DNA of 63,170 nucleotides from a virus. Position numbers and translations under genes: made by a program. The DNA lies in the IMG/VR virus record IMGVR_UViG_3300035701_000027, positions 1 through 63,170 of that record. The stretch is one strand, 5' to 3'. The notes beneath the pieces were generated by a model. The model made no database searches and had not been told where the DNA came from. It saw only the letters and a program-made list of their open reading frames with translations. Of this stretch, positions 39,969-59,283 are shown piece by piece (the first letter of the stretch is position 1; every line of letters starts with the position of its first letter).

Positions 39969-39983
39969 CGGAAAGGAGGTATG

Positions 39984-41666
39984 ATGCCGAATCTTTTTCC
40001 GGCCCGATTGCTTCACGACATGACCATGACGCCGGACGGGGGGCGCGCCGTCTGGACGGCCGACATGCTCAAGCTGGCAGGGTGCATTGTGTGGCTCGAG
40101 CGGGAATCGAGCGAAGTGTTCAGAATCAGGAATTGCGAGTCGTGCAACAACCTATTCGTCAGGCCCGGAGACTTCATCGATCTTCGGTACGAGGAGGATC
40201 CGGTGGGCCAGTACGAGAGGCCGCACCGCAATATTCGTGATGGCCTGCCGTTCCTGGGCAGGGTCGTCGGCAACTGCGTGGACGGCAGGATTCCGGAATC
40301 AATGATTTCGGAGGAATTGGATTCGCTTACCGGCAACCTTGTCGTCCTCAAAAAGTGTGTAGACTGCGATGAATTCTTAATCTCGGAAGGCGCATTCCTC
40401 GGGAGACATCTCAAAAGACGGGCGTTCATCTCCATTGAGAACAGTCCCGATCCCGTGACCGGATTGTACGGCGGCTCGGAAGCCGACGGCGTCTGCGATT
40501 GCGGCCAAGCCATGGTCAGGTGCCGCTCCTGCGGAAGGGCGGGATGCCCAGAGTGTAGTAGCTACAGCGAGATCGGAGGAAACTGGTATTGCTCCCGCTG
40601 TTCCTTCGAGTGCCAGAGCTGCGGCGAGCGGTGCGGCATAGATGGCAGTATCGCCGTCCACGATGGTAGCCGGATCTGCCAAGGCTGTTACGACTCCCAC
40701 TACTTCTCCTGCGCCAGATGCGAAAATGTTTACCACGAAGACGACGCCTGCCACGGGTTCGACGGCAACGGGGAGGACGACGAGAATCAAACGCTCTGCC
40801 CGTCGTGCAGGGAAGCCCTGGAAAGGAGATTGGGTCCGTCGAAGGGAACCATCATGGACTACGGATACAAGCCGGCGCCGAAATTCAAGCGTCAGGACAA
40901 GGAGGACAAGCCGGACGGCTGGAAGGGCTTTGAGCTTGAGGTGGAGAAGGCCGGAAGCGTAACCGACCGACAGGACATGGCGAACAGGATGTACGAAATC
41001 CTGGGCGATGCCGTGTACTACAAGAACGACGGCTCGCTCGATGACGGTTTCGAGATGGTCAGTCATCCGATGTCTGCAAGGTACTGGAACAAGACATTCA
41101 AGCCGAAGCTGAAAAAGGCGCTCTCGGTTCTCATAAAAGAGGGTTACAGGTCTTCCAACACGTCGACCTGCGGCCTTCACTTTCACCTGTCACGGACGTT
41201 CTTCTCCGGCACGATACAGCTCTACAAATTCCTGAAGCTCGTCTATGACTCCTCCAACCGGAGCTTCATCGTCAAGGTGAGCGGCCGCAGGAAAATCAAG
41301 GCCATGACCTATGCGAAACTGTCCGAGCCCCGCACGACGAGCCAGGATACCATCCTCAAGAAAAAGGCGAAGGACAAATTCGGATTCGACAGGTATCAGG
41401 CCGTCAACCTCCAGAACGAAAAGACGGTGGAGGTCAGGTTCTTCAAGGGCACGCTCAATTACTCGACGTTCTGCGCCCGCCTCCAGATGATAAGCTCCAT
41501 GATTGAGTTCTCCTGCGCCGCGTCCATCTCTCACACGCTGAACGATTATCTCGCATTTATCAGGGAAAACAGCCAGAAGTACAAGCGGGTGTACGAGTAT
41601 TTCAAAAATGTCCATCACTTCTACAAGGTAACGGTCGCTAAGGAAGGAGCCGCCCAATGTGCATAA
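39984..41666 (+). CDS. Amidoligase with N-terminal zinc modules
   Basis: This is an approximately 560-residue protein. The first ~300 residues contain at least five CxxC pairs (CESC, CVDC, CDCG, CRSCGRAGC, CSRC, CQSC, CARC, CPSC), a run of zinc-ribbon or treble-clef modules. From about residue 312 the glutamine-synthetase-fold amidoligase domain follows: KGFELEVEKAG, YYKNDGSLDDGFEMVSHPM, STCGLHFHLSR (near 397) and VEVRFFKGTL (near 483). Enzymes of the Amidoligase_2 family are predicted to join amines to carboxylates using ATP. The next gene, a glutamine amidotransferase, could supply ammonia. I chose the second ATG because the first is one base from AGGAGG. The substrate is unknown. Confidence 0.8.
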   Translation: MPNLFPARLLHDMTMTPDGGRAVWTADMLKLAGCIVWLERESSEVFRIRNCESCNNLFVRPGDFIDLRYEEDPVGQYERPHRNIRDGLPFLGRVVGNCVDGRIPESMISEELDSLTGNLVVLKKCVDCDEFLISEGAFLGRHLKRRAFISIENSPDPVTGLYGGSEADGVCDCGQAMVRCRSCGRAGCPECSSYSEIGGNWYCSRCSFECQSCGERCGIDGSIAVHDGSRICQGCYDSHYFSCARCENVYHEDDACHGFDGNGEDDENQTLCPSCREALERRLGPSKGTIMDYGYKPAPKFKRQDKEDKPDGWKGFELEVEKAGSVTDRQDMANRMYEILGDAVYYKNDGSLDDGFEMVSHPMSARYWNKTFKPKLKKALSVLIKEGYRSSNTSTCGLHFHLSRTFFSGTIQLYKFLKLVYDSSNRSFIVKVSGRRKIKAMTYAKLSEPRTTSQDTILKKKAKDKFGFDRYQAVNLQNEKTVEVRFFKGTLNYSTFCARLQMISSMIEFSCAASISHTLNDYLAFIRENSQKYKRVYEYFKNVHHFYKVTVAKEGAAQCA

Positions 41667-42667
41667 TCATCTGCAAGCCGAAGGGACTGAAGCTCAGTGA
41701 CGAGGCGCTGGAGAATTCGTGGTCGAACAACGATGACGGCGCCGGCTTCATGTGGGCCGACAAGGGCAGGATACGGACGATCAAGGTTCTCAAGAGCTAC
41801 GCCAGGTTTAAGAAGGCGTACGACAGGTTCCGGACGAGTGAAGACCTCGACCACAAGGCCGTCGTCCTTCACTTCCGGATAGGGACGAGTGGACACAAAA
41901 GCATCGACAACTGCCATCCCTTCATGGTGAACGACAATGTGGCCCTATGTCATAACGGAATCCTGTCCTGCGTCGATGTCCCGGCGAACAGCAAGGTCAA
42001 CGACACGCGGATTTTCATCAACAAATTCTTCAAGAAGTGGGACAAGAGCGGGACGAAGGATTGGCTCGCCGACGTCGAATGGCTCTCGACAATTGAGAAG
42101 CTCATCGGCGCCTACAACAAATTCGTGCTGATGAACAATCGCGGCGAGGTCGTAATCCTGAACGAATCACAGGGAACCTGGGACAGCAAGTGCTGGTTCA
42201 GCAACAGCGATTACAAGTACAAGCGGTACAGCTTTATGACCGGAGCCGGCTCGTATTGCGACTACGAAAACGACTACTGGGACAAGGCGAAAAGCACTCG
42301 CCGTTACTACGGCGACGATTGGGAGTGGAGCGAAACGGAAAACAAGATGGTCTGGATAGGCCAGGAGAAAGCGAGGGCCGCAGACAACAAGGCCGTGACG
42401 GTACAGACCGCCAACAACCTCGTCCCTTTTTCGGAGCAGAAGCCGACGGAGACAAATCCGTGGCCGGAGGAAACGGAGAAGGCTCCGCCCCTGGACGAGA
42501 TCGACATGCCGCACGACGACCCTCAATACTGTCTCGAATGTCACACAAAGCTATCGGACTATGCCATTCAGCTTGGCTTCGGATGTTGCGAGGGTTGCGT
42601 CAACGAATACTTCGACGAAGACAAAGAGGTGACGACGCTCGAAGCGCAGGGAAAAATGCCATCTTAA
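41657..42667 (+). CDS. Class-II glutamine amidotransferase-like protein
   Basis: This is a 336-residue protein. Met removal would expose Cys2 (MCIIICKPKG), the Ntn-hydrolase nucleophile. HFRIGTSGH (R74) and CHNG (N100, G101) match the glutamine-site Arg and oxyanion residues of class-II GATases. The last ~60 residues add a CLEC ... CCEGC zinc ribbon. It overlaps the amidoligase gene by 10 bases, so the two are co-translated, and they probably form one glutamine-dependent amide-forming system. Confidence 0.8.
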   Translation: MCIIICKPKGLKLSDEALENSWSNNDDGAGFMWADKGRIRTIKVLKSYARFKKAYDRFRTSEDLDHKAVVLHFRIGTSGHKSIDNCHPFMVNDNVALCHNGILSCVDVPANSKVNDTRIFINKFFKKWDKSGTKDWLADVEWLSTIEKLIGAYNKFVLMNNRGEVVILNESQGTWDSKCWFSNSDYKYKRYSFMTGAGSYCDYENDYWDKAKSTRRYYGDDWEWSETENKMVWIGQEKARAADNKAVTVQTANNLVPFSEQKPTETNPWPEETEKAPPLDEIDMPHDDPQYCLECHTKLSDYAIQLGFGCCEGCVNEYFDEDKEVTTLEAQGKMPS

Positions 42668-44383: not shown

Positions 44384-44686
44384 ATGAGTTTCATCGATGT
44401 CTTCGGGGGCCCCGTGCTCACGAAGGGAGAGGCAAGGGTGAGGTCGCACTTTGAGAAGCTCGGCATCATGCCGTCGGAGGTGCGCCTGCGGGAGAACGTA
44501 CTCACCTTCAAGGGGTGGATCGAGAAAGGGAGGGTGGTGAAGAAGGGAAGCCACGGGTGCCGGCTCACGGTGTTCAAGGAAAAGCTCGTCCGGCATCAGG
44601 ACGGAACCGAGAAGGCGGAGAAAAGACCGTGGCATTACTTCGTTTTCCACGTCAGTCAGACCACGGAGCGCACGGAAGGGGCTTAG
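44384..44686 (+). CDS. ArdC N-domain-like antirestriction fragment
   Basis: This is a 100-residue protein. The segment FKGWIEKGRVVKKGSHGCRL (about 43-62) resembles the core of the ArdC N-terminal ssDNA-binding domain, which usually precedes a metallopeptidase in antirestriction proteins. Only this part is present. It has a strong promoter directly in front and an AAAAAGGAGG site. Likely a short ssDNA-binding early protein that could protect entering DNA; the assignment is by motif style only. Confidence 0.5.
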   Translation: MSFIDVFGGPVLTKGEARVRSHFEKLGIMPSEVRLRENVLTFKGWIEKGRVVKKGSHGCRLTVFKEKLVRHQDGTEKAEKRPWHYFVFHVSQTTERTEGA

Positions 44687-44824
44687 GTTGCCCAGGCAAG
44701 GGGTTAGTTAAGCGGTTAAGGAGCGCGCCAGGATGAGGATCGGGGGTCGGGCCGTGGTGCGGGGACTACCCCCTCAAAATTACGCAAATTTCGCAGGTCC
44801 TTAAACTTTAACAAAAGGAAGCAG
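44687..44824. other. Intergenic region before the DUF932 gene
   Basis: The region of 138 bases has a GGGGGT/ACCCCC pairing with a long loop (44743-44775), an AT-rich stretch, and an AAAAGGAAG ribosome site for the next gene. I see no clear promoter or T-tract terminator. Confidence 0.4.
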
Positions 44825-45802
44825 ATGGCACACAATCTCACGCAAAGAGAGGACGGGAAGTACGAGTACATGTTCGCTGGTGCTCCTCCGTGGCACGGTC
44901 TCGGCCAGAACGTCGAAGGCTCCGCCACGGCGGAGGAGGCGATCCGCAAGGCCAACCTGGGATGGTCGGTCAGCAAGCGGCAGATGATGACGCTGGACGG
45001 CATCGACTGTCCGGACTTCTTCGCCATTGTCAGGGATGACAACAACAAACCGCTCGGTCAGGTCGGCCGCCAGTACAAGCCGACGCAGATCAACGAAGCC
45101 TTCGCCTTCTTCGATGCCGTGGTCGGCACGGCCAAGGCCAAGTACATCAGCGCCGGAAGCATCGGCGGTGGCGGCCGCATCTTCATCGTCGCGGAGATGG
45201 AAGGCCTGATCCAGATCAAGGGAAACGACACCGTGAGGCGATACCTCACGTTCTGCCACGGCCACGATGGCACTCTCGCCCACCGACTGTTCCCGACGGG
45301 GATCAGGGTGGTATGCCAGAACACGCTCGATGCCGCGCTCGCCAGGGAGAAGGCGGCGAAGGAAGGCTTCTATTCCAGGCACACCGGAGACTTACAGTAC
45401 AGGATCGACGAGGCAGCCAGCATCCTTGGCTTCGCCAACCGGAGCTTCGAGTTGTTCGGAGAGCAGGCCAAGCTGCTCGCCGGCGTCGTGGTCAACGTCC
45501 AGCAGGTCGAGAAATTCCTGCGTACCGTGTTCGAGATCCCGGTCAAGGCGGAAGAGGCAAGCAAGCAGACACAGGAAGCCGTGGACAAGGTGCTCGACAA
45601 CTTCGAGAATCATGCTTTCAATCAGGCTCCCGAGATTAAGGGCACGGCCTGGGCCCTGCTCAATTCCGTGACGCAATTCGCAGACCATCAGGCTCGGTCG
45701 GCGGGGGATGGCGCGGAGCGGAGGTTCAAGTCCATCATGTTCGGCGGCGGAAACTCGCTCAAGGCGACGGCATGGAAGTCGGCGATGGCGCTTGTGAAAT
45801 AG
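44825..45802 (+). CDS. DUF932 phage/plasmid-like protein
   Basis: This is a 325-residue protein with the DUF932 (TIGR03299-type) signature. It starts PPWHGLGQNV, followed by FFAIVRDDNNKPLGQVGRQY, then CHGHDGTLAHRLFPTGIRVVCQNTL and a helical C-terminus. The family is widespread in phages and plasmids, often near replication or defence genes, and its biochemical role is not established. The length is normal for the family. Confidence 0.85.
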   Translation: MAHNLTQREDGKYEYMFAGAPPWHGLGQNVEGSATAEEAIRKANLGWSVSKRQMMTLDGIDCPDFFAIVRDDNNKPLGQVGRQYKPTQINEAFAFFDAVVGTAKAKYISAGSIGGGGRIFIVAEMEGLIQIKGNDTVRRYLTFCHGHDGTLAHRLFPTGIRVVCQNTLDAALAREKAAKEGFYSRHTGDLQYRIDEAASILGFANRSFELFGEQAKLLAGVVVNVQQVEKFLRTVFEIPVKAEEASKQTQEAVDKVLDNFENHAFNQAPEIKGTAWALLNSVTQFADHQARSAGDGAERRFKSIMFGGGNSLKATAWKSAMALVK

Positions 45803-50829: not shown

Positions 50830-51501
50830 CTAAAAAGGATATTTGTTTTCAGACCGAATCTGGCAATACTTATTTTTTATTTCCGACCACTCCTTCGGGC
50901 GCTTGTTCGTATAATGGTCGAAGCATATCTCGATCCCCCTGTCGTCCTTGATGATGGGAATGTCCTTGTTGTTCGCCCAACTGGAGCGCGCTACGAGGCC
51001 GGTGTCGATCCGGCCAGGGTAGTGCTCCCCCATACGGTATAATCTACAATGTTGGTACTGAAACTGCAAGTCCAGATACATCTTGAACACCCTGTTCCTC
51101 GGCTGGTGTGCGATGTTTCCGTTGACCCTGTGAAGACGCTCGACCACGCGGTAAACATTTTCGGTCAGAGAGGGAAGCGTAAACTTCGGCAACACTTCGT
51201 CGGCGTCGTTTATCCAGAAATATTCACTTGGGGGGACGCGCTCGATGCAGGCGTTACGCTTTTCCATCTCATTGAGCCATCCAAATTTCGCGGCACAAAT
51301 ATAGATGTCGGCGTACTTTTTCGCAACGTCCGCGCACCCGTTTTTTGAATATGATTTATTCAGCGGATACCCTTCGACATTAAGCCATTCCCTGAATGCC
51401 CCGTCCGCGCAGATGATTTTAAATCCGTTGTCCTTGATGGCCCCCAGGGAGGCTTCAAGCAACTCCGGAGGATCATCGTAAAATATCACCGTGGCCCACA
51501 T
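50830..51501 (-). CDS. Glycosyltransferase-like protein 1
   Basis: This is a 223-residue protein. An N-terminal Rossmann-like strand (ATVIFYDDP), WINDADEVLP (D-x-D metal site near 95-99) and a C-terminal basic-aromatic region fit a short GT-A glycosyltransferase. AGGAGG precedes ATG 51501, and it overlaps the upstream transferase by 16 bases. The acceptor and sugar are unknown. Confidence 0.6.
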   Translation of the reverse strand: MWATVIFYDDPPELLEASLGAIKDNGFKIICADGAFREWLNVEGYPLNKSYSKNGCADVAKKYADIYICAAKFGWLNEMEKRNACIERVPPSEYFWINDADEVLPKFTLPSLTENVYRVVERLHRVNGNIAHQPRNRVFKMYLDLQFQYQHCRLYRMGEHYPGRIDTGLVARSSWANNKDIPIIKDDRGIEICFDHYTNKRPKEWSEIKNKYCQIRSENKYPF

Positions 51502-52313
51502 GGCGAGACCTCCTGAGCATACCCCTCCCAGGCTATTACGAGGGGATGGTTTTGCATGGACTCAGGAAGCTCCTCTCTTTTGATGGCCTTGAATTTCCCG
51601 AGGTTTTTTTCATGGCCAACGATCGGGAGAAGGCCCTCCGACCCTGGCAACCTGTTCCATTTTTGCCTTACCCATAATGATAGATCGACGGTTTTCTCAC
51701 GTTCAATTTCGTTGGATCTCCGGAGTTTTGTTATCACATCAGACAAAGATTTCCTTACATAGCACAGGTGATGGAAGTGAACTCCAGGCATCAACCTTCT
51801 TGTTCCCGCCAAATGACATCGGATTCCAGAGTACGGTACGTTCCCTCTGACAAATGCAACAGGTTGGCATTTGTCATACTCAACCGTTTGATACAGAGGG
51901 GATTTGACGTGGGTGTATATGGCGCTTGCGAATGAAAGCGTTTTAACATCGGCAGACAGGTAGGCAAAAGCGTTCTGGATCTGGGTAATATCCCATACTT
52001 CGTCGGTGTCGATCATCATCTTATAGTCGTGGGGTATTCCCCCGCACGCATCCCACGCCAAAAGATACTGCTTGGCCTGATCTCCGGTATCGTCAGGGAT
52101 GTTTATTATCTTATCCAGGGCGTCATTCTTTTTTTTCCATTCAAGTATCAGGGGCTCGACCGTGTTATCCCCGCTCTCTCCGATCCAACTCTTGTTTGAG
52201 TGGATAAAAATCATCTTATACATGAACGGATATATGCTTTCGAGTGAGGCGATGGCGAATTCGTGGCCCCGAAATGTCTTGGTTACGGAGACGACCTTGG
52301 CGCTTATCATCAT
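51486..52313 (-). CDS. Glycosyltransferase-like protein 2
   Basis: This is a 275-residue protein starting MMISAKVVSVTKTFRGHEFA at ATG 52313, which overlaps the radical SAM stop (ATGA); a longer frame lacks a ribosome site. MMIDTDEVWDI supplies the DxD motif. GT-A type fold expected. It resembles transferase 1 in the D-x-DE signature, perhaps a duplicated pair acting in turn. Confidence 0.6.
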   Translation of the reverse strand: MMISAKVVSVTKTFRGHEFAIASLESIYPFMYKMIFIHSNKSWIGESGDNTVEPLILEWKKKNDALDKIINIPDDTGDQAKQYLLAWDACGGIPHDYKMMIDTDEVWDITQIQNAFAYLSADVKTLSFASAIYTHVKSPLYQTVEYDKCQPVAFVRGNVPYSGIRCHLAGTRRLMPGVHFHHLCYVRKSLSDVITKLRRSNEIEREKTVDLSLWVRQKWNRLPGSEGLLPIVGHEKNLGKFKAIKREELPESMQNHPLVIAWEGYAQEVSPCGPR

Positions 52314-53308
52314 ACATGCCCCGCCGTAGCGTTCACGGGGTTTTGATCGTGGAGAAATCCAGGGGTCTGCTCGATCTCTGTTGCGATGGCACATAAATCA
52401 TTCCCGTCAAACCCATTGGTGTAGGTCTGATTGAACCCTCCGCAATGAACAAAGTGCGTACAGTTACAACATGGTTTCCCCTTTATGGCGACGGCCCCGC
52501 CAATTTCGTTGACTGCGGCATTCCACAGTTTTGCATCCTCGTCTCCAGAGTGCCCATAATCCCATTCGTTAGGATCGTAGAGGACATATCGTGCATTCAC
52601 CACGTATTTTCGCAAATAGGGATCGAGATGGCACATAGGATGGTATCGCAACGTGGCGTACCGTCCGGCGGAAACTATCGCTCGCAGACAATACTCCAGG
52701 TTTGGCCGCAGATCCATGGATCGCACAGCGACCTCCTTCAGTCGGTTTCCCCATTCGTAGTGGGGCAGGAACCCAAGGAGAACGATATGGTAGGCGCCCT
52801 TTCGGATGATGTAGTCGATGGTCTCGCAGAGCTGTCCGGCGTTTTCTTTCTGGAGAGTAGTATTTGAACGCCAGGGGAGCTTATTGCTTTCCAGCCAATC
52901 CAACGTCTGTGCCTGCCGTTTTGCCGCCCATTCCTTTTCCGCAATCCGATTCAACGTATCGCCCATCCCATGAACGCTGACATGAAGATGATTGAGGCCG
53001 GCAAGGTACATATCATAATAGGTCTTGATGCCGATGGTGCCGTTCGTAATAATACTTGTCTTTATGTCGATCGTCTTACACTCTTTGATGAAATCGATGG
53101 TGTGGGGCCACAGCGCGGTCTCGCCCCATCCGACAAGAACGGCATGGTCACAGCCACGCCTCTTCGCTTCCGTAACCTCGCGCATAGCGTCGAAGAGGGA
53201 CTTGTCCTCGGGGGTATTAAACCAATCCTTGTGCCGGTAAAAGCAGGTTTTACAGCGCCAGTTACACCGCTTTGTCACATCGATACCGACACGCAAGCAA
53301 CGCTTCAT
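52310..53308 (-). CDS. Radical SAM enzyme with SPASM-like tail
   Basis: This is a 332-residue protein. C15-x3-C19-x2-C22 (CNWRCKTC) binds the [4Fe-4S] cluster that cleaves S-adenosylmethionine. GWGE (60-63) stands for the GGE motif, and strands VLVGWG, SIITNG, HVSVHG follow the barrel order. The C-terminal CCNCTHFVHCGGFNQ resembles an auxiliary-cluster SPASM/twitch region, which in known families goes with peptide or sugar substrates. It is coupled on both sides by ATGA overlaps to FkbM and a glycosyltransferase. The substrate is unknown. Confidence 0.8.
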   Translation of the reverse strand: MKRCLRVGIDVTKRCNWRCKTCFYRHKDWFNTPEDKSLFDAMREVTEAKRRGCDHAVLVGWGETALWPHTIDFIKECKTIDIKTSIITNGTIGIKTYYDMYLAGLNHLHVSVHGMGDTLNRIAEKEWAAKRQAQTLDWLESNKLPWRSNTTLQKENAGQLCETIDYIIRKGAYHIVLLGFLPHYEWGNRLKEVAVRSMDLRPNLEYCLRAIVSAGRYATLRYHPMCHLDPYLRKYVVNARYVLYDPNEWDYGHSGDEDAKLWNAAVNEIGGAVAIKGKPCCNCTHFVHCGGFNQTYTNGFDGNDLCAIATEIEQTPGFLHDQNPVNATAGHV

Positions 53309-53922
53309 TGATGCCTCTTGTAGATGTCGTTTATTCCTACCGAGATTATTTTTTCGTACCCCCTCGACAGCATCAGCTCTCCTATATCATTTTGCCCGTA
53401 ATTGTTTTCTATGTCGAATATTGATATATCAAATCTCCCGAAAGGAAATGCCCTCAAAATCCTATGTTCTGCGCCCTCGACATCAATTGTCATGTAGTCG
53501 ATATGATTTAATCCCGCGATGTCCAGGGCCGCTTCCAGTTTCAAACATTGTACGAGTATCACTTCGATGTCTTCTTTCGCGTGCGCGGATCGGATCCTTT
53601 CAAGATGTTTTTTGTGCATATCCTCCGATAGTCCGCTCCAGCCTGTGACCTTATTGCATATCGTAAAATGTTGAAGTCCGAAATGATCGCTAATTGCCGC
53701 ATTAAAGCACGCACAGTTACGATTCGTTCGGAGCTTTTTAAATTCGCTTGGATTTGGCTCGATACACAGTCCTGTCCACCCGAGCTCTTTCTCAAAAAAA
53801 AGACTGTTGCTTGTCAGGAGTCCGTCGATGGCGCCGAATTCGACGAATACGCCACCGCGCATACCCTTAAAAATGTTCTCATTGAGCCACTTGTCCTGGC
53901 CGTGCTCCGAATTGTACGTCAT
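53305..53922 (-). CDS. FkbM-family methyltransferase
   Basis: This is a 205-residue protein. It has GQDKWL, VFVEFGAIDGLLTSNSLFFE (SAM-binding motif I region), CIEPNP, and YMTIDVEGAEH, the standard FkbM line-up. The family O-methylates sugars or small molecules. It overlaps its neighbours by ATGA, so it belongs to the glycan cluster. Confidence 0.85.
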   Translation of the reverse strand: MTYNSEHGQDKWLNENIFKGMRGGVFVEFGAIDGLLTSNSLFFEKELGWTGLCIEPNPSEFKKLRTNRNCACFNAAISDHFGLQHFTICNKVTGWSGLSEDMHKKHLERIRSAHAKEDIEVILVQCLKLEAALDIAGLNHIDYMTIDVEGAEHRILRAFPFGRFDISIFDIENNYGQNDIGELMLSRGYEKIISVGINDIYKRHQ

Positions 53923-54587
53923 ATCTTTTCCTTATTTTCGTAGGCGGTCTGTTTTCCTATGTGCTCGACATAATCCTCTGCGGTGCATGCCCTTTCGTAC
54001 TTTGACGCATACCTCAATCCGTACATTCTTTCAAAATACGGGGCGATCTCAAATGGCCCCACCTCCCGGATCGCCCCCGTTCTATTGAGGCCCGGATTTA
54101 GGCTGAACGCAGGATGAATCCCTTTTCCGTACACGCAGTATTTAACTATTTGGTATTTTAAAACGCGGGGCGCGCCATCTTCGATGGTATAGTTTTCGAT
54201 CCCTTCGTGCACGTCCCCCTGTGGGCAAAGCAATACCTGTCCTATTCGTTGATTTTCCGACATTATCCTAAGCCCGTCGGTGATGTAAAAACCGTCTTTC
54301 TTGAACCACCAATCATCTTCGCATTGGAAGAAAAAATCAGTCTTGATGTTAGGATAAAGATTATTTAAGTTAAACGAATGTCCCTTTTGGGGGCTTCGAA
54401 AGACATTGAATCCGTACCTCTTCATCTCCCCGATGTCGTCTTCGCCGCTTCCATCATCTCCGCACAACCATTCGGAGACAAGGTTTAGGTCAAGACAATG
54501 GCGCATGAAAGAGGCCATCGTCTGACGGAAATACTGGATCCGGTTACAGGTCGTGATGACAAAAGTGACGGATTGCTCTACGGCCAT
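53919..54587 (-). CDS. Family-2 glycosyltransferase
   Basis: This is a 222-residue protein. TFVITTCNRIQYFRQTMASF is the GT2 N-terminal strand-helix, CGDDGSGEDD follows, and FFFQCEDDWWF gives the DxD-type metal site. The C-terminus is short. A glycosyltransferase of GT-A fold. It overlaps the FkbM gene by four bases. Confidence 0.75.
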   Translation of the reverse strand: MAVEQSVTFVITTCNRIQYFRQTMASFMRHCLDLNLVSEWLCGDDGSGEDDIGEMKRYGFNVFRSPQKGHSFNLNNLYPNIKTDFFFQCEDDWWFKKDGFYITDGLRIMSENQRIGQVLLCPQGDVHEGIENYTIEDGAPRVLKYQIVKYCVYGKGIHPAFSLNPGLNRTGAIREVGPFEIAPYFERMYGLRYASKYERACTAEDYVEHIGKQTAYENKEKI

Positions 54588-55180
54588 TTTATTTTACCGC
54601 TCATCAGGTCGTTGAAAATTGCACTATTCGTATTCCACGCCGCCATCTGCCCTTTTTTTTCATTGAGATGGACGAGTTTAACGGAGTTATTTGTGACGTA
54701 CTTCCCATTCGGATACTTTCGATTGAGGCACTCGCAGAACCAAGTGTCCTCAAAGCCTGACGATACAAACCCCTCGTAGAACCTCGTTCCGTCGTTCCTG
54801 AAGGCCACGCACGCGGTCGGCAACTTCTTGTTCTTGGCCTCGTCGAGCGGTTTTGAAACGTCGAAGCTCTCCCCCATGGTATAGGCAAGTTTCCCGTCAG
54901 GCCTATAGAGTCTCGCGGAGACCATGATGATATCCGGATCGGAGAGCGGCTCAATCAGAAGATCCGCCCAATTTTCATGGAAACCACGCACGTCATCATC
55001 GACCATGATGACGATCTCCGACTTCGCTATGTCGAGGCCGGCGTTCCTATTCTTCGCCGCGCATTGGGGAAGACAGATCGCCAGGACGTTGAATCGACCG
55101 TAGGTATAGCCCTCCATGTCGCACACCATCGGCGCGATCTCAAGAGGACTTTTGCAGGATGGGATGATTATATCTGTCAC
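54578..55180 (-). CDS. Family-2 glycosyltransferase, first of the cluster
   Basis: This is a 200-residue protein starting at GTG 55180, which overlaps the upstream TGA (GTGA) with AAGGCGG before it. VTDIIIPSCKSPLEIA opens a GT2 fold, and EIVIMVDDDVRGFHE is the DxD site. SGFEDTWFCECLNRK may be the acceptor-side segment. Likely a short GT-A transferase. Confidence 0.75.
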   Translation of the reverse strand: MTDIIIPSCKSPLEIAPMVCDMEGYTYGRFNVLAICLPQCAAKNRNAGLDIAKSEIVIMVDDDVRGFHENWADLLIEPLSDPDIIMVSARLYRPDGKLAYTMGESFDVSKPLDEAKNKKLPTACVAFRNDGTRFYEGFVSSGFEDTWFCECLNRKYPNGKYVTNNSVKLVHLNEKKGQMAAWNTNSAIFNDLMSGKIKWP

Positions 55181-55419
55181 GTATCCGCCTTGGCTTTTAT
55201 TCCGTTCTTTTTGCGGCACTCATCCTGATTCGGAGCCACACCCGTAGCATCAGTGCTGATTAAGTGCTTATAGCAGTCCCGGCATTCCATGCCGTTCCTC
55301 GGCTTCTGCCAGATCACGCATTGGATGATTGGTGACTTCATGGCGATCTCATCAGCGGCCTTCTGCCTTTCTTCGATAAGCTCCTCTCTCGTCTTCCGTC
55401 TTTCTGCTACCTGTTCCAC
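55177..55419 (-). CDS. Small Cys-containing protein, 80 residues (unknown)
   Basis: GTG 55419 follows GGGAGGC. The N-terminal half is a charged helix (VEQVAERRKTREELIEERQK). The C-terminal half has IIQCVI, CRDC and a last Cys, a possible zinc site. It leads directly into the glycosyltransferase cluster. No family is recognised. Confidence 0.5.
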   Translation of the reverse strand: MEQVAERRKTREELIEERQKAADEIAMKSPIIQCVIWQKPRNGMECRDCYKHLISTDATGVAPNQDECRKKNGIKAKADT

Positions 55420-58283: not shown

Positions 58284-58789
58284 TTCACCCTCGGTTGATT
58301 GATGAATTGGACGCGACAATGGTACGGGTAATTGGAATCAAATACGAAGACCGCGTGCGATTGCTGTGCCGCGTCCTTCGTGTCGGAAAACTTCAACCTT
58401 CCCTTGATGAAATAAAGCTCGGTGCAGTATTGGCAGGCCTGAAACCACCAATCCTGATCCGTCTTGCACGGTACAAGAAAAACGATCACTATGTGACGAC
58501 GCTCTTCATACGCCAGTTTTGTGCAACGAACAATGAAATCGGCAAACGAATCAAGGCTCTTTACGTCATAAGGCGGATTGCAGAAAATGGCGCCCTGGCA
58601 ATCAACGATGGCCTCCGGATTCTCGGACTGAAAAGGGCTTTCTTTCGTGCAGTATCGCTTGCAAAGGGCGTTCTCCTTGGAAGCGGCCGCATCGAGATCG
58701 AATTTGTATCGATCATTGAACATATCGAACAACCATTTTGGCGTGCGGTATTCGCTCGTTTTGCTACGCTTCAGAATCATCTTGCTCAT
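58280..58789 (-). CDS. Phage DNA N6-adenine methyltransferase (Dam)
   Basis: This is a 169-residue protein. EYRTPKWLFDMFNDRYKFDL is the opening of the phage N6-adenine methyltransferase family, and NPPY (71-74) is the catalytic DPPY-type motif. It likely methylates phage DNA against host restriction or marks it for replication. It overlaps its neighbours on both sides. Confidence 0.85.
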   Translation of the reverse strand: MSKMILKRSKTSEYRTPKWLFDMFNDRYKFDLDAAASKENALCKRYCTKESPFQSENPEAIVDCQGAIFCNPPYDVKSLDSFADFIVRCTKLAYEERRHIVIVFLVPCKTDQDWWFQACQYCTELYFIKGRLKFSDTKDAAQQSHAVFVFDSNYPYHCRVQFINQPRVK

Positions 58790-59283
58790 ATCGTGTCCGT
58801 TTCCGCCCAGAGCAACTGTCCATGGCAGTAGTCAGGCTTCGGCCAGAAGCCTCCCCATTCAAGGCCCGCCTCCTTGATCAGTGTTCCGGCCTCCAGGTAG
58901 TCTTCGATGTTGTTGCTATTCACGTCGGCCTTCACATCCCATGTAGTCGATCTTCCTTTGACTATGGCGAAGTCAAAAGCACTCGATTTATCGTTCGCCT
59001 TCCTCCCGTCGTCGAGCCGAACCAAGTGCCGGCTCTCCAGCGTCCACGTCACCTGCTTGTTTTGGGACGTTGGAATCGACATCATTCCGGCGATCGCTCG
59101 GTACATATTGACGTTTTCCGTAGTATCTCTTCCCTGTGCAAATAAGGCGAAATGAACCTGCCACACCCTTGCGACGTTGGTGTACGCGAACGGCAGTTTC
59201 GCCATCTTCATCTTTCCTTCCCAAATCAGCGCTTTCCGGAGCAGGTTTGGGCTCATTTCCGCATGTGCTTTTTCAATTTTCAT
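58786..59283 (-). CDS. Endolysin, M15-type L-alanyl-D-glutamate peptidase
   Basis: This is a 165-residue protein. The zinc ligands H86 (ESRHLVRL), D104 (SAFDFAI) and H154 (DYCHGQL), with the catalytic E142 (GLEWGGFW), match peptidase M15 endolysins. WDVKADVNSNNIEDYLEAG is the usual second half. It would cut peptidoglycan stem peptides at lysis. There is no signal peptide, so export needs a holin. ATG 59283 has no Shine-Dalgarno site and sits just after a nested inverted repeat. Confidence 0.85.
   Translation of the reverse strand: MKIEKAHAEMSPNLLRKALIWEGKMKMAKLPFAYTNVARVWQVHFALFAQGRDTTENVNMYRAIAGMMSIPTSQNKQVTWTLESRHLVRLDDGRKANDKSSAFDFAIVKGRSTTWDVKADVNSNNIEDYLEAGTLIKEAGLEWGGFWPKPDYCHGQLLWAETDTI

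Follow-up and report, generated by a model that had tools for sequence, protein, structure and literature searches.

Near-obligate linkage of an amidoligase gene to a predicted class-II glutamine amidotransferase gene in phages and bacterial mobile elements

The 63,170-base virus record analysed here (hereafter, the window) carries on its plus strand two overlapping genes, for an amidoligase and a predicted class-II glutamine amidotransferase (GATase), and the linkage of these genes is near-obligate in related phages and bacterial mobile elements. The families of the two proteins, their intact active sites and predicted folds, the linkage, the fixed gene order and the distribution over mobile elements were all computed in this work. 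As the best explanation, and a probable one, we propose that the two proteins are subunits of a glutamine-dependent amidotransferase that modifies a component of the host. To our knowledge, the substrate of phage amidoligases, which have been annotated since 2009, is not known; given the linkage to a glutaminase across many viral and mobile-element loci, the substrate question becomes a two-protein biochemical problem.

The ligase gene (39981-41666, 561 amino acids) and the GATase gene (41657-42667, 336 amino acids) overlap by 10 nt, and both are clearly coding by codon score, in agreement with the earlier note, which had placed two overlapping genes at 39984-42667. The former was assigned to Amidoligase_2, the carboxylate-amine ligases of glutamine synthetase (GS) fold, from Pfam PF12224, phrog_16683, Foldseek and hhalign, and the latter to the class-II (Ntn) GATases from GATase_4, a profile match to GlmS (1xff) and Foldseek matches (3ooj, 1xff). 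There are two in-frame ATG codons at the beginning of the ligase gene, at 39981 and 39984, and the spacing from the Shine-Dalgarno sequence AGGAGG (39974-39979) is better for the one at 39984. A Shine-Dalgarno-like GGAAGGAG region for the GATase lies inside the ligase gene (approximately 41641-41649), and the overlap itself, ATGTGCATAA (41657-41666), encodes the GATase start M-C-I and holds the ligase stop codon TAA. The same 10-nt overlap, with GATase start and ligase stop, was found in 11 other non-redundant pairs, and 48 of 82 pairs have a Shine-Dalgarno-like motif ahead of the GATase. Together, this motif and the overlap of start and stop point to coupled translation.

The ligase matched Amidoligase_2 with an E-value of 7.4e-6 (26.5 bits, above the curated cutoff of 22) and phrog_16683 with an E-value of 3.5e-40; for both proteins the PHROG matches were stronger than those to Pfam, but the PHROG families have no function assigned. 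Conservation in 96 homologues delineates a catalytic core (40902-41624, plus strand) with G316-x-E318-x-E320, D350-G-S352, E358, H400-x-H402, R436, N476 and E484-x-R486. Each of the residues E318, E320, D350, S352, E358, H400, R436, E484 and R486 is found in at least 95 of the 96 non-redundant ligases, the odd one out probably being a GATase ORF in the ligase set (L092), which was excluded from later counts; H402 is kept in 74 of the 96 and replaced by N in 19. The active-site set ExE, DGS, HxH and ExR is present, as in Amidoligase_2 and the GS-fold COOH-NH2 ligases. Furthermore, in an hhalign comparison (probability 87%), the GxHxH and TVExR motifs of the ligase profile aligned with Escherichia coli YbdK. 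Structures were modelled with AlphaFold2 fed with family alignments, and in the ligase model the confident part spans approximately residues 180-540. The closest solved folds in Foldseek were YbdK, glutamine synthetase, PafA, Dop and gamma-glutamylmethylamide synthetase (GMAS), with modest E-values (4.5e-4 to 5e-3) and modest TM-scores, the top entries all belonging to the GS superfamily; the viral models matched were phage amidoligases, one of them from mycobacteriophage Tesla. The predicted fold of the ligase is thus that of the GS superfamily.

The GATase was matched by Pfam GATase_4 just below the cutoff of 23 (20.9 bits, E-value 1.9e-4) and by phrog_25883 with an E-value of 1.4e-12. A phmmer search of the PDB with the window GATase alone returned chance antibody matches only, and a family profile was required. 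This profile matched the glutaminase domain of GlmS (1xff, E-value 1.1e-9), running in register with it over H72-R74-T77-G79, H87-P88 and H99-N100-G101, and ranked GlmS and PurF over EgtC. Foldseek gave the same ranking for the structure model, most of the core of which (residues 1-190) has a pLDDT above 90: the best solved relatives were GlmS glutaminase structures (3ooj, 1xff), followed by PurF-type enzymes and EgtC. The active site, assigned from conservation and, for H72-G101, from the GlmS register, extends over 41660-42004 (plus strand) and comprises the Cys2 nucleophile, H72/R74/T77/G79, H87-P88, N100-G101 and D116. Among 76 non-redundant homologues, C2, H72, R74, H87, P88, N100, G101 and D116 are kept without exception, and the class-II hallmarks, namely a Cys directly after Met, the glutamine-binding Arg, the Asn-Gly oxyanion pair and the Asp, are all found in the window protein. 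The second gene is thus predicted to encode a class-II glutamine amidotransferase with a GlmS-type glutaminase fold. Possible loss of the GS-fold residues or of the GATase Cys/Arg/Asn set, considered in the earlier note, was examined across both proteins, and all tested positions proved intact and conserved.

Both subunits carry zinc modules. Nine CxxC motifs lie N-terminal to the ligase core, seven of them in an array at residues 181-291 (40521-40853, plus strand; defined from the CxxC map, pLDDT and a LIM profile match) and two outside it, at residues 52 and 126. The array is predicted to be folded, the pLDDT of residues 180-290 being about 70-95, and its family profile matches LIM modules (1b8t, E-value 2.9e-5). 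Two further CxxC motifs, at residues 292-314 of the GATase, form a putative C-terminal zinc ribbon (CLEC...CEGC; 42530-42616, plus strand). The two proteins therefore correspond to the zinc-module-rich GS-fold amidoligase and to the N-terminal-Cys GATase ending in a zinc ribbon that had been described from the letters of the window. Since LIM modules are protein-interaction modules, their resemblance to the array favours a still unproven docking on protein over docking on nucleic acid; of the two partners that the earlier note had suggested for the run of zinc modules, protein fits the LIM-type likeness, and modules of the nucleic-acid-binding type are less alike. Of 80 pairs, 64 have at least two zinc-type motifs on one subunit or on both, with 12 pairs having them on the GATase alone and 17 on the ligase alone, and at least two CxxC motifs occur in the GATase tail of 45 of the 76 homologues. 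That every ligase carries zinc modules was considered and rejected, because CxxC is absent from 27 of 96 ligases and 16 of the 80 pairs lack an obvious zinc module on either subunit. The zinc modules are a common but dispensable accessory.

To survey the pairing, viral contigs were scanned with family alignments, which were required because the window ligase as a single sequence yielded no matches. The scans recovered at least 597 ligase and 269 GATase relatives; from each set the best 80 were used, so that the pairing figures describe the subfamily and not all Amidoligase_2. With iterated profiles, a class-II GATase gene was found to adjoin the ligase gene in 78 of 80 viral ligase loci, and in the other two (L037 and L078) the contig ends right behind the ligase. 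Conversely, a ligase adjoins the GATase in 76 of 80 viral GATase loci; one more is cut by a contig edge and three (L127, L146 and L169) are without a ligase. The gene order is always ligase then GATase, and the intergenic gap measures between -29 and +50 nt in 139 of 154 viral pairs. In Clostridioides phage AR1086-1 (L006), a ligase is present and no GATase was detected within 5 kb on either side, indicating that some members of the family can make do with free ammonia or an amine. The ligase of this phage adjoins a gene for an RlaP-type RNA-repair nucleotidyltransferase, with an RNA 2'-phosphotransferase annotated upstream.

In bacterial and archaeal genomes, a scan identified 493 relatives, and the best 80 of these (L171-L250) were examined. 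They come from Oscillospiraceae and other Clostridia, mostly Ruminococcus, often with several per Ruminococcus flavefaciens genome, and the pair is complete in 75 of the 80 seeds. Conserved co-occurrence, on which the earlier note had made its reading depend, is therefore found in both viral sets and in the bacterial one. Within 6 kb of the 80 bacterial loci, MobA/VirD2 relaxases were found at 38, serine resolvases at 38 and tyrosine integrases at 20, and ligase relatives are also located on plasmids of C. difficile and mycobacteria; in 55 of the 80, a gene for a 95-amino-acid DUF960 protein immediately precedes that of the ligase. Judging from the relaxase, resolvase and integrase neighbours, the pair is cargo of mobile elements generally. 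Moreover, its carriage by non-viral elements argues against a role purely in phage replication or 'auxiliary metabolism' and for one in host modification or conflict.

Phylogenetic trees of the two subunits suggest an exchange of partners. Ligases of gut mobile elements group in a clade with support of 98/88, and the ligase L089 is its sister (100/97). In contrast, the GATases of these elements fall outside the phage-type GATases, to which that of L089 belongs, and cluster with GlmS, PurF and AsnB of E. coli (93/90). One ligase lineage thus apparently swapped its GATase for a member of a different class-II glutaminase subfamily; as the GATase branch (93/90) falls just under the strict support threshold, we treat this switch as supporting and not as decisive. 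That two class-II subfamilies partner one ligase family suggests that glutaminase activity is what is selected.

No third gene common to all was found among 102 non-redundant loci, which indicates that the two genes are the functional unit; frequent neighbours included a WhiB regulator (21 loci) and, immediately before the ligase, a gamma-glutamyl cyclotransferase (8 loci). Neither an ATP-grasp enzyme, nor a second ligase, nor a gamma-glutamyl cyclotransferase was recognised among the scanned ORFs around the window pair, and PADLOC defence-system models gave no match at E<=0.1. Elsewhere, larger arrangements occur: cyclotransferase, ligase, GATase and ligase genes follow one another in L033, and StenR_269 (L008) has a cluster of GATases, amidoligase and ATP-grasp that is intermediate between the two-gene pair and a seven-gene cassette.

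The window phage has a syntenic relative (G001, the phage of locus L011), with a capsid protein 73% and a TerL 63% identical. The pair is retained in this relative at about 36% identity, being more diverged than capsid, portal and terminase, and most other small early ORFs are without a counterpart. A DUF932 gene was considered as a component of the system and rejected: it is kept in the syntenic relative and a more distant DUF932-like protein is encoded elsewhere in mycobacteriophage Marvin, and it was not found in the other tested records. At 44384-45802 (plus strand), a small protein resembling the ArdC N-terminal domain (E-value 1.7e-4, just below cutoff) is encoded directly upstream of the DUF932 gene; both genes are kept in the relative and possibly form an anti-restriction unit. 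A minus-strand cluster at 51486-55219, absent from the relative, encodes a radical SAM enzyme, an FkbM-type methyltransferase and two family-2 glycosyltransferase-like proteins and is suggestive of a glycan or surface modification cassette. Finally, an M15-type D-Ala-D-Ala carboxypeptidase-like endolysin is encoded at 58786-59283 (minus strand).

In the mechanism we propose, the GATase subunit, its Cys2 made N-terminal by removal of Met, would hydrolyse glutamine and supply ammonia; the GS-fold ligase would use ATP to activate a carboxylate, an acyl-phosphate being the probable intermediate, and attack by the ammonia would yield an amide. The zinc modules of both subunits may anchor the complex to a macromolecular target or the subunits to each other. 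In this mechanism, the assembly of a complex, the transfer of ammonia, the chemistry with ATP, the target and the benefit are inferred. The module would be an early or accessory function of phages and other mobile elements, through which a host component is modified and the resident element benefits. The most plausible such component would be the peptidoglycan stem peptide (lipid-II precursor) or a host protein. Peptidoglycan is our tentative first choice, and its stem peptide has been proposed as the target of larger cassettes (PMC5498523, PMC10580990); a protein, equally compatible with the LIM-like array and the relationship to PafA/Dop, is a possible target, a small molecule a rather doubtful one and a nucleic acid an improbable one. 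In its broadest form, the pair might be the minimal core of a widespread, mobile-element-borne host-modification system performing zinc-module-targeted, glutamine-dependent amidation of one host macromolecule, from which the resident element gains superinfection exclusion, host takeover or counter-defence; its users would be lytic phages, mobilizable elements of the gut and possibly plasmids. We offer this as a speculative extension, possible but not likely.

Other readings of the pair place the chemistry or the target differently. After the pattern of EgtA-EgtC or PuuA-PuuD, the ligase might join the gamma-carboxylate of glutamate to an amine or a protein, the Ntn enzyme later cleaving the gamma-glutamyl amide without feeding ammonia to the ligase. 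EgtC, a gamma-glutamyl amidohydrolase, indeed matches the GATase model in Foldseek (E-value 2.3e-4), but sequence profile and fold both place GlmS/PurF above it. The weak Pfam match of the GATase is to GATase_4, a family that we take to include EgtC/YafJ-like proteins, and the nearest fold to that of the ligase is YbdK, an enzyme resembling gamma-glutamate-cysteine ligases; however, the gut-element GATases cluster with the ammonia-supplying GlmS, PurF and AsnB, and a specialised gamma-glutamyl hydrolase as partner would make the exchange harder to account for. In 8 of 102 loci the ligase is immediately preceded by an AIG2/gamma-glutamylamine cyclotransferase, which would suit such a cycle, whereas most loci lack this enzyme and none was recognised beside the window pair. 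We consider this cycle of addition and removal unlikely.

A logic like that of PafA/Dop, in which a host protein, recruited by the LIM-like array, is then amidated or conjugated at a side-chain or C-terminal carboxylate, shares its chemistry with our preferred explanation and differs in naming protein as the target. No conserved tag or peptide gene was found adjoining the pair in the 102 non-redundant loci, and the fold matches to PafA and Dop, although these are among the neighbours of the ligase, are weak (E-values about 3e-3). The zinc array is predicted to be folded and LIM-like, and 64 of 80 pairs have zinc modules on one or both subunits, but 16 have none; we judge this reading rather unlikely as a whole. 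Less likely still is a step in the synthesis of a modified nucleobase or a small secondary metabolite. GATases take part generally in the synthesis of nucleotides and metabolites, the window protein is related to GlmS and PurF, and a secondary-metabolite role was suggested for Marvin in work cited in PMC10580990. Yet base-modification or biosynthetic genes are not conserved as neighbours in the 102 loci, and because they do not recur beside the pair, the DNA-base-modification reading was set aside.

A gene pair of this composition has several counterparts. Pairs of amidoligase (PF12224) and GATase have been reported in the OM43 phages MEP401/402 and in more than 30 related metagenomic genomes (PMC10580990). 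An adjacent pair is also annotated in Marvin (gp105-gp106). In both cases the families, adjacency and order are as in the window; MEP401/402 share an overlap of identical length (10 nt), and Marvin a zinc-rich ligase N-terminus and a zinc-bearing GATase tail. However, the ligases are 22-28% and the GATases 28-33% identical to those of the window, the phage backgrounds are unrelated, and the window ligase has more CxxC motifs (nine) than those of MEP401/402. A predicted peptidoglycan modification cassette is described for RIO1-, phiEco32- and LUZ24-like podoviruses in PMC5498523 and PMC3890496, which cite Iyer et al. 2009 and Hardies et al. 2013. Like the window, it has among its early genes one for an Amidoligase_2 ligase and one for a glutamine amidotransferase, but it comprises about seven genes, including a second ligase, an ATP-grasp enzyme and a gamma-glutamyl cyclotransferase, whereas the window has the two-gene core only.

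More distant parallels are found in cellular enzymes. MurT has a Mur-ligase fold and GatD is a class-I (triad) GATase. The GS and class-II Ntn folds of the window proteins are both unlike these, so that the two systems are analogous, not homologous. MurT-GatD is likewise a two-subunit ligase and glutaminase, and it amidates a peptide carboxylate, the D-Glu of peptidoglycan (PMC3267633). The pupylation enzymes PafA and Dop share the GS-superfamily fold with the window ligase; unlike in their case, no Pup-like gene was recognised near the window pair, and zinc modules are added. In EgtA-EgtC (ergothioneine synthesis) and PuuA-PuuD, a GS-fold ligase is coupled to a GATase-fold enzyme that removes a gamma-glutamyl group. 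EgtC is a fold neighbour of the window GATase, whose nearest sequence relatives are GlmS and PurF. The Pfam text for PF12224 mentions neighbouring amidotransferase and cyclotransferase genes. Thus, this kind of pair is already known from the OM43 phages, the Marvin annotation and the LUZ24-like and RIO1-like cassettes; new here are the quantified near-obligate linkage, the apparent partner switch, the distribution over mobilizable elements and the survey of zinc modules.
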